Part shown: in pieces, positions 13,152 to 19,026 of the stretch
How positions within the stretch are numbered: position 1 is the stretch's first letter
How the letters are laid out: each line of letters starts with the position of its first letter
Virus record (IMG/VR): IMGVR_UViG_3300047321_000792
Location: 1-38,337 of that record
Direction: 5' to 3' (one strand)
Source of the DNA: a virus
DNA: 38,337 bases
The notes under the pieces: generated by a model
The model's database searches: none
Seen by the model: only the letters and a program-made list of their open reading frames with translations
Told to the model about the DNA's origin: nothing
Program-made: the position numbers and the translations under genes

Positions 13152-13348
13152 GCGTCCTCCTTGCGCCGCTGACAGGTGTCACGCAGGCGTTTGCAGTAGT
13201 GGTTGAACTCGTCGGTGGTGATGGCGCCATCGGTGAAGAGGCGGGTGATCAGTCCCTGCACCAGCAGGCTGATGTCTTCTTCGCCGGCGGGCGCCGACAC
13301 ACCATCAAGGGCTTGGTCGATCAGGATGTGAGGGCTCAAAACCCGCAC
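13148..13348 (-). CDS. Small hypothetical phage protein
   Basis: A 66-residue protein with helical segments (EEDISLLVQGLITRLFTDGA, then ITTDEFNHYCKRLRDTCQRR). The start overlaps the end of the 134-aa gene by 13 bases, and its stop overlaps the next ATG, so it is translated from a polycistronic message. Function unknown. Confidence 0.65.
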   Translation of the reverse strand: MRVLSPHILIDQALDGVSAPAGEEDISLLVQGLITRLFTDGAITTDEFNHYCKRLRDTCQRRKEDA

Positions 13349-13740
13349 TCCCGCTCTACGCGATCGCTTTCGCGCTTGGCATCGCGATATACGTTGGCGT
13401 GCACTGAAACCAGGTCGCCGGCCAGCCTTCGAACAACCAGCGGATCACCGCCGACGGCCTCAACGGCCCACTTGTGGAGCACTCCACCACCCTCGCGGCA
13501 GATCAACTTGATCAGGATCTTCTCGATGTACCGATCGGGATCCGGGTTCGCGGCCATGTGATCCGCCAGCGCCTCCGGTAAGTGGTCAGCGTTGACCAGG
13601 ACCTTGCTTCGACCTACCGGATTTGGTGCCTCCACGTGGCGCCGATAGAGCAGATCGTCGATCGACTCGGTCAGCCATTCCTGACCGGCCTCCGTGTCGA
13701 GAAAGTCGTCTTCCGGGATGGGCTTGCGTAGAGCTGACAT
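13336..13740 (-). CDS. Hypothetical phage protein
   Basis: A 134-residue protein starts at ATG 13738-13740 with GGAG six bases upstream; the frame is open 31 codons further without a ribosome site. It begins MSALRKPIPEDDFLDTEAGQ and contains a helical C-terminal half. No family is recognised. It is the first gene of the recombination cluster and faces away from the secreted-protein gene at 13937. Confidence 0.65.
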   Translation of the reverse strand: MSALRKPIPEDDFLDTEAGQEWLTESIDDLLYRRHVEAPNPVGRSKVLVNADHLPEALADHMAANPDPDRYIEKILIKLICREGGGVLHKWAVEAVGGDPLVVRRLAGDLVSVHANVYRDAKRESDRVERECGF

Positions 13741-13896
13741 GGTCGTCTCCAGAGTGGCGGGGTGTTGATCCAACAAAACTCGGATGCACTCATCCGCTCC
13801 GCTGGTTGCCGTTGGGCGCGGAGGGGAGTGCATTCGGGTGGCGTCGGAGGTGCGCGGCTAAATTGCTAAAGGAACCAGCGAGCTTGGCCGATACGT

Positions 13897-13936: not shown

Positions 13937-14287
13937 ATGTTTCTAAGTAAAGTTCGCAGTGCTGCAGCCATCGCGGTGATTGCCCTCGCTTATGCTGTTC
14001 CAGCTCCGGCTGCCACAGACGTTGTCGCAGACCACAACACTGCGGTTATGGCTGTAGCATCCATCCAGGCGTGCGCAAAAAAACATCCAGAAGCAGGTAT
14101 CACTTTAGAAAAATTCCTGACGGAGCAGAAAGAGGGTATGACTGACGAGATGGCGAAACACATCCGTGATGTTGCTACAAACCCTAGGTACGAAATGGAG
14201 GTGAAGCAGTCGACTGAGTTTTTCAATTCCAAAGGCGGCCAGGATTTGCTAGACAGCCTCTGTGGTGGATTGATTACTGCGAAGTAA
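13937..14287 (+). CDS. Small secreted protein, accessory gene
   Basis: A 116-residue protein starts at ATG 13937-13939 behind GGGAGATCTGA. Residues 1-26 form a classical Sec signal peptide (basic start, AAAIAVIALAYAVPAPA core, cleavage near PAPAA-T), so the mature protein of about 90 residues should be periplasmic. It is helical and has two Cys (SIQACAKK and DSLCGG) that could form a disulfide. The strand and an operator-like palindrome upstream mark an independently controlled accessory gene. A role in envelope alteration or exclusion is possible; no family is recognised. Confidence 0.75.
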   Translation: MFLSKVRSAAAIAVIALAYAVPAPAATDVVADHNTAVMAVASIQACAKKHPEAGITLEKFLTEQKEGMTDEMAKHIRDVATNPRYEMEVKQSTEFFNSKGGQDLLDSLCGGLITAK

Positions 14288-14359
14288 GTCACTCACTGCT
14301 AAATTTGCTGTGGTTCATACCTTTATGCAGGTGGGCGGTTATAGGCCGCAGTTTCGTCC

Positions 14360-14472
14360 GCATCGGGGTGTGATCTGGCCGGAGCTGATCTCGGCATATG
14401 GGTAGATTATCCCGCTACCCCATCTAGCGGTGTCGTCGCATCAGCCTGCGCATTCAGATCACACCCCGATGC
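14360..14472. ncRNA. 113-nt nested inverted-repeat element, possible structured RNA
   Basis: Three nested pairings share one axis: a perfect 17-bp outer stem (14360-14376 with 14456-14472, GCATCGGGGTGTGATCT), a 6-bp middle stem (GCTGAT 14384-14389 with ATCAGC 14440-14445) and a 6-bp inner hairpin (GGGTAG 14400-14405 with CTACCC 14415-14420). It lies in the 239-bp gap between convergent genes. No T-run follows the outer stem, so a simple terminator is unlikely. A structured RNA or a paired protein-binding site are the alternatives. Confidence 0.5.
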
Positions 14473-14526
14473 GCTCTCATAGAGAGGATCGGGCAGTTAA
14501 CGACAGGCTGTCGTGGCGCTGGTTGT

Positions 14527-15312
14527 TCAGTCGTAGAGTCCGTAACTCAGGTCATCTGGGTCGCAGTCGACCAGCAGAAATGCGTTACCGAAGTACAGGG
14601 ACGCCAACATTCGCTCCCACTTCGAATACACCTGCATGTCGATGGCAATTTTCTTGTCATCCAGCTTGGCGCTGTAGACCTCGCCAAACGCCATGGTTGG
14701 TTTCCAGTGATCGCCGGTTTCGCGCTCGCCCTTGATACTGATGTGCAGCGCGTGTTTCAGGCTGTAGTTGCTGCGCGAGGAAGGCGAGTAGTGGCTACTC
14801 CGGTAACTGTCTTCAGGCTCAGGATCGAAGTAAATGTGCAGCGTCTTGTGGGAGTAACCGCCATCGCCTTCTTCAATGCGAATTTCCGGCCGCTCCCATT
14901 GGCCTTCGGCGGCACTTTCCTTGTGGTGCTCTATGAATTCTCCGAGCAGCGCCTTCAGCGAAACCTCGCCGGCCAGCAGACCCTCGCCGGAAAGCACCTC
15001 AGCTATGGACTTTTCGGCGCGATCCAAGATGAGCGAACCCATGGCCGCTTGTTCCCAGCGCTGGCTCAGGGCGTTGGCGACGAGGGCGTTGTAGCGCTGA
15101 AGCTCGAACATGTCGGTGACGTTGGCGGGCAGTGCAGACTTGACGGCTTCCTTAATTGCTCCGCCGAAGTCGCCGTAGGAGCGAAAGGTGTCACTTACAA
15201 CTTCTTTGAACAGCTTCTCGATGCCCTCGTCGATCAGTTCACGCGGGCGGTCGGACTGGGCGTATGCAGTGACGCGCTCGGCAAGAAGCGCTTGAAGGGT
15301 TTGTTCGCTCAT
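14527..15312 (-). CDS. Hypothetical phage protein, first gene after pL
   Basis: A 261-residue soluble protein begins MSEQTLQALLAERVTAYAQS. The N-terminal half is helical (KLFKEVVSDTFRSYGDFGGA, LQRYNALVANALSQRW); the C-terminal half is strand-rich with LHIYFDPEPEDSYRSS and ends DCDPDDLSYGLYD. Similar proteins occur in early regions of many phages without a known role. It is the first gene downstream of pL, about 340 nt into the transcript, so it should be made very early after infection or induction. Confidence 0.75.
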   Translation of the reverse strand: MSEQTLQALLAERVTAYAQSDRPRELIDEGIEKLFKEVVSDTFRSYGDFGGAIKEAVKSALPANVTDMFELQRYNALVANALSQRWEQAAMGSLILDRAEKSIAEVLSGEGLLAGEVSLKALLGEFIEHHKESAAEGQWERPEIRIEEGDGGYSHKTLHIYFDPEPEDSYRSSHYSPSSRSNYSLKHALHISIKGERETGDHWKPTMAFGEVYSAKLDDKKIAIDMQVYSKWERMLASLYFGNAFLLVDCDPDDLSYGLYD

Positions 15313-15754: not shown

Positions 15755-16318
15755 TCAGTCAAGAATTGGTGGGTATTTCCCGCTTACGGAATCCCGGTAC
15801 ATGATTTCGCTGAAGAGCCTCGGCTCATTCCGAAGGAGCGCTAAGGCCTGCTTTGCCTCTTCTTTTGTTTCAAACGGGCCGGCACCAATTGCCGTGCCAA
15901 TCATTGGAACAACTGGAAGTCCGAGCGCCTTGATCGCCTCGATGGTGCTTAGCTGCTCCGCACCCTCCTTACAGGGTACGGATGCGACCCACCCGTTCCG
16001 GAGTCGTGGAGACTGAATAGCTTCAACCTCTGCACTGCAGTGCTTGCACTTGATGGCTGCGCTCTTGATCGTTTCGGCGCAGAAAGGGCAGGCACGCTCG
16101 GCGGACGCACCAACTCCTAGCCCCAAACGGTTTTTCGGTTTTTCTGTGTTTGCTGAGGAAGCCCAAACCAATGCGACGACCCATCCCAAAAACGTCCAGC
16201 CAAGAAAAAGATTGACCAGGAAAATCGACGTTCCGTTGAGGTGCTTTCGACTTGAGGCAACAAATGTGGGCAGGAAATAGATTACGAAGCCAACCACCAG
16301 AAACAGAAAGCCAGCCAT
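15755..16318 (-). CDS. Superinfection-immunity (Imm) family protein fused to zinc ribbon
   Basis: A 187-residue membrane protein. Residues 3-52 carry two membrane spans with YFLPTFVASSRKHLNGTSIF followed by LVNLFLGWTFLGWVVALVW, the signature of the Imm_superinfect family (T4 Imm-like proteins that block DNA entry of related phages). Residues 77-94 are a zinc ribbon, CPFCAET...IKCKHC. Residues 108-168 resemble a SPOR-like fold (GPFETKEEAKQALALLRNE). The start at 16316-16318 has GGAAG at the correct distance; an ATG six codons upstream is less well placed. It has its own terminator and lies next to cI, so lysogenic expression is likely. Confidence 0.8.
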   Translation of the reverse strand: MAGFLFLVVGFVIYFLPTFVASSRKHLNGTSIFLVNLFLGWTFLGWVVALVWASSANTEKPKNRLGLGVGASAERACPFCAETIKSAAIKCKHCSAEVEAIQSPRLRNGWVASVPCKEGAEQLSTIEAIKALGLPVVPMIGTAIGAGPFETKEEAKQALALLRNEPRLFSEIMYRDSVSGKYPPILD

Positions 16319-16480
16319 AGGACTTCCACTATCCATATCGTATAACCTGATCCATTGAGGGAGACGCGGATTTTACCATTCGTGGCCGTGCGCCACCATC
16401 TTCTGCACCGTCAGTCGCCGCCACTGAACGGCAGCGCTTTGGGGGGGGCTCTACCGGTGTACCCCCTCCAGGTACTCACT

Positions 16481-16871: not shown

Positions 16872-18209
16872 CTACGTGTTGTCATCCAGAATAAAATCTA
16901 TCGTCTCGCGAATTTCGGGAGTTGCGTTTACAAACTTAATCCGCTTATATGAACTCATGCCCAAGCTTTTAATCGGGGAGGCAAGCAAGGCACTCAGAAA
17001 ACTATGAGGTGAGCTTACAACATTCTCGAAGTTTATCAGGACGTTTTTTCCCTCTTCTATTGCAGGAAAAATTCTTTTATCACGCAGTTTTATTGCGGCC
17101 TCTTTGTCTTCTGCGTATTTTCCGAAAAAATTTTCAATGCCAATTAAAATTGTGGTTGCAGCTTCCTTTGTATCGCCGAATTTCTGCTCTTTGTCAGCGG
17201 CCTCACGGAATTCCTGCATTATTTTGTGCAATACGAAATTCGAGTTTCTTTCCAGGCGGAGAGAGACCAGTACAAGAGTGCCTGGCCATGCTGTTTCCAT
17301 TCGTCTACGCGTTACATCTCTCGGTGATATGTGAACCAGTCCATTTCCTGAAAGTATGTGCATGTCGGCGTTTAAGCGCCTTATAATATTAGATGAGATG
17401 AATAATCCCATGCCTGCGTTATTTTTATTTTTATATGGGTCGTTACGGCCAAAGGTTCCTGAGACTTTTGGACGCAAAGCAAACTCAATTGCCTCTTCGT
17501 CCGTTTCTAATGGTGGAAAGGCTTGCTCTATATGTGCCTTTATGCCAACTCCCAAGTCGGCAATAATGAATTGGATTTCGTTCCGCTGTTTGTACCATGT
17601 GAACTGGACCAGTGATGGTATGCGAACGCTTCTTGGTCCTGAGAAGCAGCTGCCATGTTCCATAGTATTGTATAAAAGCTCGCCCAGAACATAACGCAAA
17701 GTGCTTTCATACTCAACGTTGAATCCATCTGTGTATGATTCTGCTGACTGTATGACTGTCCCGAAATCCTTCGCATCTCTAACTGCGAAAAGCGGTTTAA
17801 AATGATTGCCTTTGAACTGCTGGCCATCATTAAATAACACGGCAAATAAACCTCGCGCCCCCATTGTGCGCCACATTTCGCTGGCCCCAGTGACCTTTTC
17901 ATTTTCTACAAAGGTTACTCGACAGCCTTGAGATTTTAATTTCCAGCCGTAAATGGCAAGCAGGGACAAAGCTTGATAGTTAGCTGTGTGACATCTCGTC
18001 AGGTCGATCTCTACTGGCGAGTCATGAATATTCCAGTTAAAAAAACTAATGAGCCTCTCAAAGTCATAAACATCATGCTCTTTAAAGGAAAATCGTGGGG
18101 GTAGCTGAAGCTTGACCACTCTCTGATCCTCTAGCTCTTTTTTTAACTCTTCGAAACCTTCGTGATACATCGTCAGTCCCTTTACGATTTCAGAATGGTT
18201 TTCAGTCAT
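16872..18209 (-). CDS. GHKL ATPase with STAS-like ends, encoded behind cI
   Basis: This 445-residue protein starts at ATG 18207-18209 with AAAGG close upstream, 28 bp after the cI stop. Residues 30-125 resemble a STAS-like domain (PVEIDLTRCHTANYQALSLL). Residues 165-320 are a GHKL/HATPase domain with all boxes intact: N-box GELLYNTMEHG (Glu177, Asn181, His185), G1 DLGVG (218-222) and G2 NAGMGLFIS (264-272). Residues 365-440 resemble DUF4325, a STAS-like domain (KNVLINFENVVSSPHSFLSA). No kinase phospho-His or receiver domain is seen. STAS and GHKL parts normally work as partner-switching modules. Co-transcription with cI predicts expression in the lysogen; anti-phage defence or host control is inferred. 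Codon use is more AT-rich than in its neighbours, suggesting recent transfer. Confidence 0.8.
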   Translation of the reverse strand: MTENHSEIVKGLTMYHEGFEELKKELEDQRVVKLQLPPRFSFKEHDVYDFERLISFFNWNIHDSPVEIDLTRCHTANYQALSLLAIYGWKLKSQGCRVTFVENEKVTGASEMWRTMGARGLFAVLFNDGQQFKGNHFKPLFAVRDAKDFGTVIQSAESYTDGFNVEYESTLRYVLGELLYNTMEHGSCFSGPRSVRIPSLVQFTWYKQRNEIQFIIADLGVGIKAHIEQAFPPLETDEEAIEFALRPKVSGTFGRNDPYKNKNNAGMGLFISSNIIRRLNADMHILSGNGLVHISPRDVTRRRMETAWPGTLVLVSLRLERNSNFVLHKIMQEFREAADKEQKFGDTKEAATTILIGIENFFGKYAEDKEAAIKLRDKRIFPAIEEGKNVLINFENVVSSPHSFLSALLASPIKSLGMSSYKRIKFVNATPEIRETIDFILDDNT

Positions 18210-18237
18210 GACCTTTACATCATTGTTGGTGTAGTTG

Positions 18238-19026
18238 TCAGCGAGAATACATAGCCCACCAGAACACATGCCCCAAAATCGATATCTGCTGTTCCTGGAT
18301 CTGCTGGAACGTATAGTCCTCGTCCGGATGCTCATCACGGTTGAAGCTGCGCAAGCGAATCCCGATCGGGATGCGGTAGACCTGCTTCACGCGAAGCTGG
18401 CCGTTGTGGTTGATGGCATACATCTCGCCGTCGACGATATCGCTCAGTGAGTTTTTCCCCACGTTCACGCCGACCGTCGCGCCGTCGCGCAGCACAGGCA
18501 CCATGCTGTTGCCGCCGACCTTCACGCACTTGGCGTTGCTGAACTGAACGCCGTTGTGGCGCAGGTCCTTCTTGTTGAAGCGCAGACGCGAGTTGGCGCT
18601 TTCCTCAATCGCGAACCTGCCAGATCCGGCCGCCAGTTCGACTTCATGAAGGAAGGGGACGTAGACCTCATCATCATCGAGCGGAGTTTCGTCGTCCCAA
18701 GTCTCGATGCTTCCTAATTTTACGCTTGGCTGTATGCGGTCCTGCTGCACGCTGGCAACAGTGGATAACAGTCGAGAGCTGACCTCGCTTGCATCGAAGT
18801 TGAGCGCCTTTGCGAGCTTCAGCAGCGCTTCCACATTTAGTGGCACCTTCCCGGTGGCGTATTGGCTGAATGCGCTTTGCCCAGACCATCCGCACGCCTC
18901 TGCAACATCCGCCTGCGTCAGGCTGCGCCCGGCAGCTTTTGCAGCTGATTTCCGCTGTTCGTAGATAGCCTTGAGCCTGGCGCTCTCGGCGACTTCTTCG
19001 GGGGTAAGGGGGCGGCGTATTTTCAT
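18238..19026 (-). CDS. cI: CI-like repressor (S24 self-cleaving)
   Basis: A 262-residue repressor that maintains lysogeny. Residues 35-62 form the helix-turn-helix (LTQADVAEACGWSGQSAFSQ). The C-terminal half is an S24/LexA-like domain with the cleavage site Ala133-Gly134 (ELAAGSGRF), the catalytic Ser174 in GGNSMVPVLRDG and the Lys214 in QLRVKQVYR, so it should self-cleave in the SOS response. The start 19024-19026 lacks a ribosome site and lies 10 bases after TAATAC, so the message may be nearly leaderless, as for lambda cI. It overlaps no gene and is followed by the GHKL gene. Confidence 0.93.
   Translation of the reverse strand: MKIRRPLTPEEVAESARLKAIYEQRKSAAKAAGRSLTQADVAEACGWSGQSAFSQYATGKVPLNVEALLKLAKALNFDASEVSSRLLSTVASVQQDRIQPSVKLGSIETWDDETPLDDDEVYVPFLHEVELAAGSGRFAIEESANSRLRFNKKDLRHNGVQFSNAKCVKVGGNSMVPVLRDGATVGVNVGKNSLSDIVDGEMYAINHNGQLRVKQVYRIPIGIRLRSFNRDEHPDEDYTFQQIQEQQISILGHVFWWAMYSR

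Follow-up and report, generated by a model that had tools for sequence, protein, structure and literature searches.

GOLLD and ROOL are RNAs of phages and go together with tRNA arrays. The 6S RNA of lambda is made between the late promoter pR' and its terminator, a region from which other phage small RNAs (sRNAs) also arise. In the laboratory, a 'tRNA scaffold' serves as a means of displaying RNA. PMC13192938 describes PasD and STnc100 as having a common structure and different seeds, and places PasD near Q and lysis genes. According to PMC5331693, copies of STnc100 are expressed, and Northern blotting has verified one of them in EHEC. Skipping-rope RNA is presented in PMC7779021 and PMC8501573 as a phage RNA with a covarying pseudoknot. 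The locus considered here belongs to a family of putative phage RNAs for which we use the name class-2 tRNA-bodied RNA (model R1).

The window, that is the whole stretch of 38,337 nucleotides of viral DNA that was analysed, is judged from its protein families to be a lambdoid temperate phage, with an integrase, RecE/RecT, a CI-like repressor, a CII-like activator, an anti-repressor, an O-like replication protein, NinB, NinG and a large terminase. By the CI gene, 16872–18338 (minus strand) encodes a 488-residue protein with a STAS-like DUF4325 domain and a weak match to histidine-kinase-type ATPases, and 15755–16336 (minus) encodes a superinfection immunity protein (PF14373). The feature of interest is a perfect 19-bp inverted repeat, 14359–14377 with 14455–14473, enclosing 77 nt. 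The preliminary description had reported a perfect outer stem of 17 bp; the stem is real, but its ends had been set one base short on each side. It had also judged such a repeat very unlikely by chance; by arithmetic, 38 kb should contain about 3e-5 perfect inverted repeats of 19 nt with both arms inside 200 nt. Both of the further 6-bp stems that it listed can be read in the sequence. GCTGAT/ATCAGC represents a complementarity between a D loop and a T loop. For GGGTAG/CTACCC there is a competing hairpin, CCGCTA/TAGCGG, on the opposite strand. The folding comparison with shuffled sequence that it had proposed gave, for 14340–14500, z = −5.2 on the plus and −4.1 on the minus strand, with none of 200 shuffles as stable.

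The genes around the repeat are convergent, as had been stated. To the left lies an ORF of 116 aa (13937–14287, plus) without PHROG or Pfam match, and to the right an ORF of PHROG 2600, function unknown (14527–15312, minus). The left ORF has a signal-peptide-like start, runs against the direction of the left operon and looks like an accessory gene. The absence of a terminator from the repeat was likewise confirmed: the terminator scan found its only site at 13781–13796, and a short GC stem followed by a T run is lacking at the repeat. The Rfam scan of the window at the gathering cut-off returned no family there; STnc100 was absent at its gathering score and, for 14200–14650, at E 5, and no tRNA was called at the repeat by RF00005 at the gathering cut-off or by ARAGORN at default settings. 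With loosened thresholds ARAGORN made hundreds of calls in the window, which were discarded as noise. Skipping-rope RNA (RF02924) was rejected as a candidate: its model did not reach the cut-off anywhere in 15 records, and the window gave no match.

Relatives of the repeat, most commonly in Pseudomonas phages, share a frame that reads on the window's minus strand as an arm, AATGCGCAGGCTGATGCGC, a variable stretch, GCCGGAGATCAGCACCGGC and the complementary arm. BLAST in phages yielded a 27-nt stretch common to Hafnia, P1, IME207 and other phages; scanning IMG/VR for a 19-mer of this stretch returned at least 120 stretches, and one scan of genome contigs for the family at least 118 matches. Closing arms were found in 245 of 271 D-motif matches (272 unique, one incomplete and left out). 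At least 10 of the 26 that failed look like chance coding matches in genomes; those inspected outside the proteobacteria are chance coding matches that lack the frame, and several matches of the arms-only scans are of the same kind. Alignment A1, the basis of R1, comprises 45 of 82 short-cargo frames, hand-picked for variety. As the search fixed the D motif in most loci, variation in the D stem comes mainly from arms-only loci. One frame finder demanded standard pairs in the 7-bp stem, and the claims on strand and stem length therefore rest on a pairing-free location of the arms, in which the 3' arm was placed from the T-arm sequence alone and 42 of the 271 elements, in which this rule placed no 3' arm, were dropped.

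Among 142 distinct arm pairs located in this way, Watson–Crick pairs number 139, 125, 131, 133, 136, 135 and 128 at positions 1 to 7, then 81, 48 and 28 at positions 8 to 10. Since pairing drops after position 7, the stem measures 7 bp, as does the acceptor stem of a tRNA. Positions 1–7 hold 30 G–U against 8 A–C cells (partner-shuffled means 79 and 57), an excess which fixes the RNA strand, minus in the window. A D-like stem of 4 bp follows after a 3-nt linker, and a T-like stem of 5 bp is joined to the acceptor strand without linker. Over the 45 aligned elements, 98.0% of 990 cells are paired (shuffles 87.0%), 11 of 22 pairs show double changes (shuffles 5.4) and covariation is 0.326 (shuffles 0.113), values which none of 500 shuffles reached; slid controls are 30–48% paired. 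RNAalifold returned the same three helices with no structure supplied. The D stem takes the forms GCGC/GCGC, GCAC/GTGC, GCCC/GGGC, GCAA/TTGC, GCGA/TCGC and GCGT/ACGC, and the arms-only loci, in which D and T were free, contribute GCAC/GTGC, GCCC/GGGC, GCAA/TTGC and GCGA/TCGC. CAGC, the complement of GCTG in the D loop, occurs in the T loops of 217 of 243 relatives. The complementarity of the two loops is strict, and a D-loop/T-loop contact is likely, although less well proved than the stems because, in the 45-element alignment, both sides of it are changed in locus L439 alone. A predicted tRNA-like body in which the anticodon arm is replaced by another segment, the cargo, is well supported by these data.

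The preliminary description had offered a structured RNA or a binding site for a pair of proteins, and had pointed to a homologue search with covariation. That search revealed compensatory changes in all three helices, which argues for the RNA; the preference for G–U over A–C speaks against a protein-pair DNA site, which would not favour G–U. Relatives keeping the flanks and losing the pairing were not observed: in these loci, which were selected on their arms, both are kept and the inside is exchanged. The minus-strand sense, the tRNA-like frame and the exchange of cargo had not figured in that description.

In the window, R1, here built from 45 relatives with the window left out, matches 14371–14461 on the minus strand with 54.6 bits (E 5.2e-14; next best 11.5 bits). 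This 91-nt core, R1 positions 1–90, contains an acceptor-like stem, a D-like arm, the cargo and a T-like arm. The 5' strand of the 7-bp stem (TGATCTG, 14455–14461) and its 3' strand (CAGATCA, 14371–14377), the latter joined directly to the T-like arm, are defined by the repeat and R1, and their length by the 142 arm pairs. The inverted repeat adds 12 bp of leader:trailer pairing (14462–14473 on the leader side, 14359–14370 on the trailer side), which places this copy among those with the longest arms: arms are 7–10 bp in 239 of 246 relatives and 19 bp in five, including L166, L250 and, with different sequence, L212. The D-like arm, GCGC-AGGCTGAT-GCGA (14436–14451), and the T-like arm, GCCGA-GATCAGCT-CCGGC (14378–14395, located by R1), form helices backed by double changes in the family, and AATGCGCAGGCTGATGCG is matched exactly at 14437–14454. 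ATCAGC in the T-arm loop complements GCTGAT in the D loop. A 7-bp acceptor, a D arm and a linkerless 5-bp T arm are thus found in the family and also here, with two imperfect pairs in this copy, a G–A at the foot of the D arm (D1) and an A–C innermost, at the top of the T stem (T5). The copy may be decaying, as these two pairs suggest. The cargo, 40 nt at the position of the anticodon arm (14396–14435), contains a hairpin, CCGCTA-GATGGGG-TAGCGG (14412–14430, minus), and occurs otherwise, within IMG/VR, only in locus L021. Just 5' of the stem lies a small hairpin, CTCTCTATGAGAG (14474–14486, minus), that is conserved in relatives and, with its flanks, could pair with the same strand as the trailer; further upstream, a palindrome, ACGACAGGCTGTCGT (14500–14514), is conserved in relatives with the same frame.

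Links to genuine tRNA are seen in several phages. Cargo cluster 1, present in HK620 and others, also matches 33–34 nt in Ackermannviridae phages. In PhaxI the match lies inside a gene annotated tRNA-OTHER, which has a canonical acceptor stem, a D arm and a TTCGAAT T arm, the cargo replacing the anticodon arm; the unannotated counterpart in CBA120 ends in ACCA. The tRNA-OTHER genes of Kuttervirus and Agtrevirus (L484:678-763, L485, L486:678-766) have complete tRNA bodies with a conserved arm that is not an anticodon arm and adjoin tRNA-Ser; CCA was seen in those of L485 and L486. Real tRNA D and T arms occur within the GTTGTGGTG frame in L372, and in L488:993-1136 the D arm is class-2-like and the T arm canonical. 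ARAGORN tRNAs lie within 1 kb of 30 of 245 elements, on the same strand as the assumed RNA in 28 of the 30. CCA stands one base past the stem in 26 of 158 distinct relatives and not in the window, where there is also no anticodon arm or TTCRANY T loop; its T loop is GATCAGCT and its hairpin loop GATGGGG, without U33.

The cargo is highly diverse. That of 243 elements falls into 161 blastn clusters, 126 of them single, and several clusters occur with more than one set of arms; the largest, of 12 members, has at least six. The window cargo itself recurs in IMG/VR in another frame, in L021. At the window's slot, compared in IMG/VR loci selected on their arms (53 of 54 with enough flank), the 70 nt upstream are 90–99% identical to the window in 18 of the 53, and in 12 of those 18 the 60 nt downstream are 75–90% identical. 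The inner part is 52–59% identical, against an average of 48% and a maximum of 60% for shuffled window inserts. By our own reading, some of these inserts keep the D/T complementarity in other letters, for example GCCAA with TTGGC. The sequences show that the cargo is exchanged between phages, frame and flanks staying in place. The stability of the cargo is weakly above that of shuffled sequence (mean z −0.55; z below −2 in 8 of 148), and k-mer enrichment gave no clear motif. Tandem arrays of strict acceptor/T-arm frames are rare, with one same-strand neighbour within 300 nt over 240 loci.

In some relatives, the cargo is a copy of helix 11 of 16S rRNA. The cargo of L426 and L467 is identical to E. 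coli 16S 246–282 at 35 of 37 positions, and that of L119 and L130 to 243–282 at 32 of 40, an exchange of TA..TA for AT..AT in the latter pair keeping the helix paired. The helix-11 core was found in 76 IMG/VR viral contigs. Alignment to E. coli 16S exceeds 150 nt in none of them, and the scaffolds of the core comprise class-2 frames, GATTGGATG frames and an AATG-TTTTGG..CCAAAGCATT slot closed by GCTGGC/GCCAGC. Unlike the helix in rRNA genes, these are isolated copies of 37–40 nt, set in other scaffolds and bearing compensatory changes. Helix-11-like stretches in L523, L524, L525 and L531 have quite different flanks, followed by promoter-like TTGACA sequences; L523/L524 and L525/L531 may be longer rRNA copies from other taxa, or the four may belong to another phage RNA, whose similarity to 16S extends further. 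Imitation of rRNA by cargo in general was rejected: in shuffles and controls helix 11 alone was decisive, no other cargo gave a decisive match, and the window cargo showed no rRNA similarity in the shuffle test (z 0.8). At a score of at least 29 over 663 stretches, rRNA matches form, by our own grouping, about 8 sense groups, about 3 antisense groups when own-strand duplicates are excluded, none for reversed sequence and 3 for the complement. Class-8 inserts were rejected as copies of the 23S 3' end (z 0.3), as was cargo cluster 1 as the 16S decoding region, its best rRNA match lying in 23S with an indecisive score of 25.

Class-2 elements occupy varied genomic positions. The HK620 element follows the annotated late promoter pR' with qut and precedes the terminator tQ, and it has the orientation of the transcript. 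The leftward operon has an element near its start in Orimi01 and in Hafnia phage yong1, and P1 and IME207 have elements within tRNA clusters. P1 has a second class-2 element, L010:999-1096(-), with D stem GCAC/GTGC, besides the one adjoining tRNA genes. Upstream of the element in L012, L013 and L487 is a second module, GGTAAGAGCA .. TGCTCTTTCC, which stands ahead of many enterobacterial copies; its 3' strand resembles boxA and could pair in either direction. A terminator-like hairpin follows within 180 nt in 34 of 220 distinct elements (15%, versus 3% at random positions). Among 5426 complete E. coli genomes, 851 contain matches to a 161-nt P1 query, and the 10 matches listed are unannotated. 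Of 149 Pseudomonas genomes sampled, 17 hold an R1 match. Putative tRNA-shaped RNAs with an exchangeable segment are widespread in proteobacterial phages.

We propose, with a probability of about 60%, that the window specifies a minus-strand RNA with a tRNA body which is excised and whose exchangeable cargo works in trans, its most likely role being that of decoy or ligand. The RNA would be transcribed leftward with the early left operon of the lambdoid Pseudomonas phage and cut from the transcript by RNase III in the long stem, by tRNA-processing enzymes acting on the body, or by both. Its tRNA-like fold would keep it stable, and the cargo would act on a host RNA-binding factor. Body and cargo exchange can be read directly in the genomes compared; excision and stability are what we infer from them. 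Such a stable RNA would probably display its payload as a decoy, and the helix-11 copies in some relatives are the best hint at a decoy or ligand role. Weighing against the proposal are the two imperfect pairs of the window copy, the lack of rRNA similarity in its cargo and of any match for most other cargo, the slight advantage in stability of cargo over shuffled sequence, and the single double change in the D/T loop contact of class 2. A wider proposal is tentative and somewhat doubtful, namely that proteobacterial phages carry modular RNA decoys, each recognised and stabilised as a tRNA is and presenting a domain that imitates host RNA, swapped by recombination in a kind of arms race and titrating ribosome- or tRNA-directed host factors or defences. 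The imitated RNA would include parts of tRNA, with helix 11 of 16S rRNA as the clearest case.

The main rival, which we regard as unlikely, is a base-pairing sRNA of the STnc100/PasD kind, whose frame would be a stabilising handle and whose cargo would hold the seed for mRNAs. Both models recognise one P1 element, L010:715-835(-): STnc100 with 33.9 bits, which is under its gathering score, and R1 with 22.1 bits (E 0.001). The element has a 7-bp stem with an adjoining T-like arm; since it fits both models and has the same stem and T-like hairpin, the two families may be related. A common structure with different seeds, and a location by Q and lysis genes for PasD, would also suit this rival (PMC13192938), as would the Northern-verified STnc100 of EHEC (PMC5331693). 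However, R1 does not detect the STnc100 annotated in Klebsiella phage P01, and the STnc100 model at E 0.1 finds no class-2 element in HK620, IME207 or ep3. Moreover, helix-11 cargo with compensatory changes points to a structure and not to a seed. More unlikely again is a cis-acting intercistronic element, in which stem and body would separate, process or regulate the messages of neighbouring accessory genes. An ORF start with a Shine–Dalgarno sequence stands within 120 nt downstream of 93 of 220 elements (42%, versus 26% at random positions), which fits a cis role and counts against one in trans, and varied genes closely follow the CCAAAGCATT slot. Yet the HK620 element is followed by the annotated tQ, the next gene in the sense of the window RNA (13336–13833) lies past a convergent gene, and variety of cargo would be useless in a plain spacer.

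It is very improbable that the elements are put-like RNAs which, at the beginning of an early operon, make RNA polymerase insensitive to terminators. The elements of Orimi01 and Hafnia phage yong1 do have such a place, where lambda has N and HK022 has put, a resemblance of position only; against this, elements also occur within tRNA clusters in P1 and IME207 and ahead of a terminator in the late leader of HK620, and their hypervariable cargo is unlike put. Least probable, and already disfavoured, is a DNA element, whether a site of recombination or replication or an inverted repeat of the MITE type. A perfect 19-bp inverted repeat and cassette-like exchange would be expected of it, but the stem's 30:8 ratio of G–U to A–C, the double changes inside the arms, the fixed 7-4-5 geometry and the occurrence of D and T arms of tRNA within this frame are not, and no target-site duplication was seen by eye around the elements.

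Should these RNAs be produced, the tRNA scaffold of the laboratory would have a natural counterpart that evolved in phages. The exchangeable part, together with the copied rRNA helix, would offer a direct route to the host factor that the phage must bind or fool. P1 and HK620, both laboratory phages, carry copies. Despite the matches in E. coli and Pseudomonas genomes, neither an Rfam family nor an open-access paper was found for class-2 RNAs: Rfam gave no family at cut-off across 11 loci, nor at E 2 across nine, and the open-access literature yielded no paper with the core 14-/15-mers or the family.

A number of parallels can be drawn with described RNAs. GOLLD and ROOL are far larger and have no Rfam match here. 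Skipping-rope RNA is, like class 2, a phage RNA, but its model gives no match over the cut-off in the records scanned. STnc100/PasD (RF02076) is also a phage RNA, often by Q and lysis genes. The STnc100 or STnc100-like RNAs of P1 and Klebsiella phage P01, which lie downstream of class-2 elements, share with these a stem of 7 to 8 bp and a T-like hairpin directly on its 3' strand, whereas the D and T loops differ, and the accessible part of PMC13192938 describes no exchange of cargo. Phage tRNAs and the tRNA-OTHER genes of Kuttervirus have the same 7-bp acceptor, 4-bp D arm and linkerless 5-bp T arm, and the latter carry the same cargo at the anticodon position. Class 2 differs from tRNA in its T loop, AGAUCAGCA in place of UUCRANY, in its 3-nt linker between acceptor and D arm and in its usual lack of an anticodon arm, and it escapes both ARAGORN and the tRNA model. 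Class-2 RNA is rated here as a variant of tRNA-like RNA or phage sRNA; the decoy reading would make it more than that.
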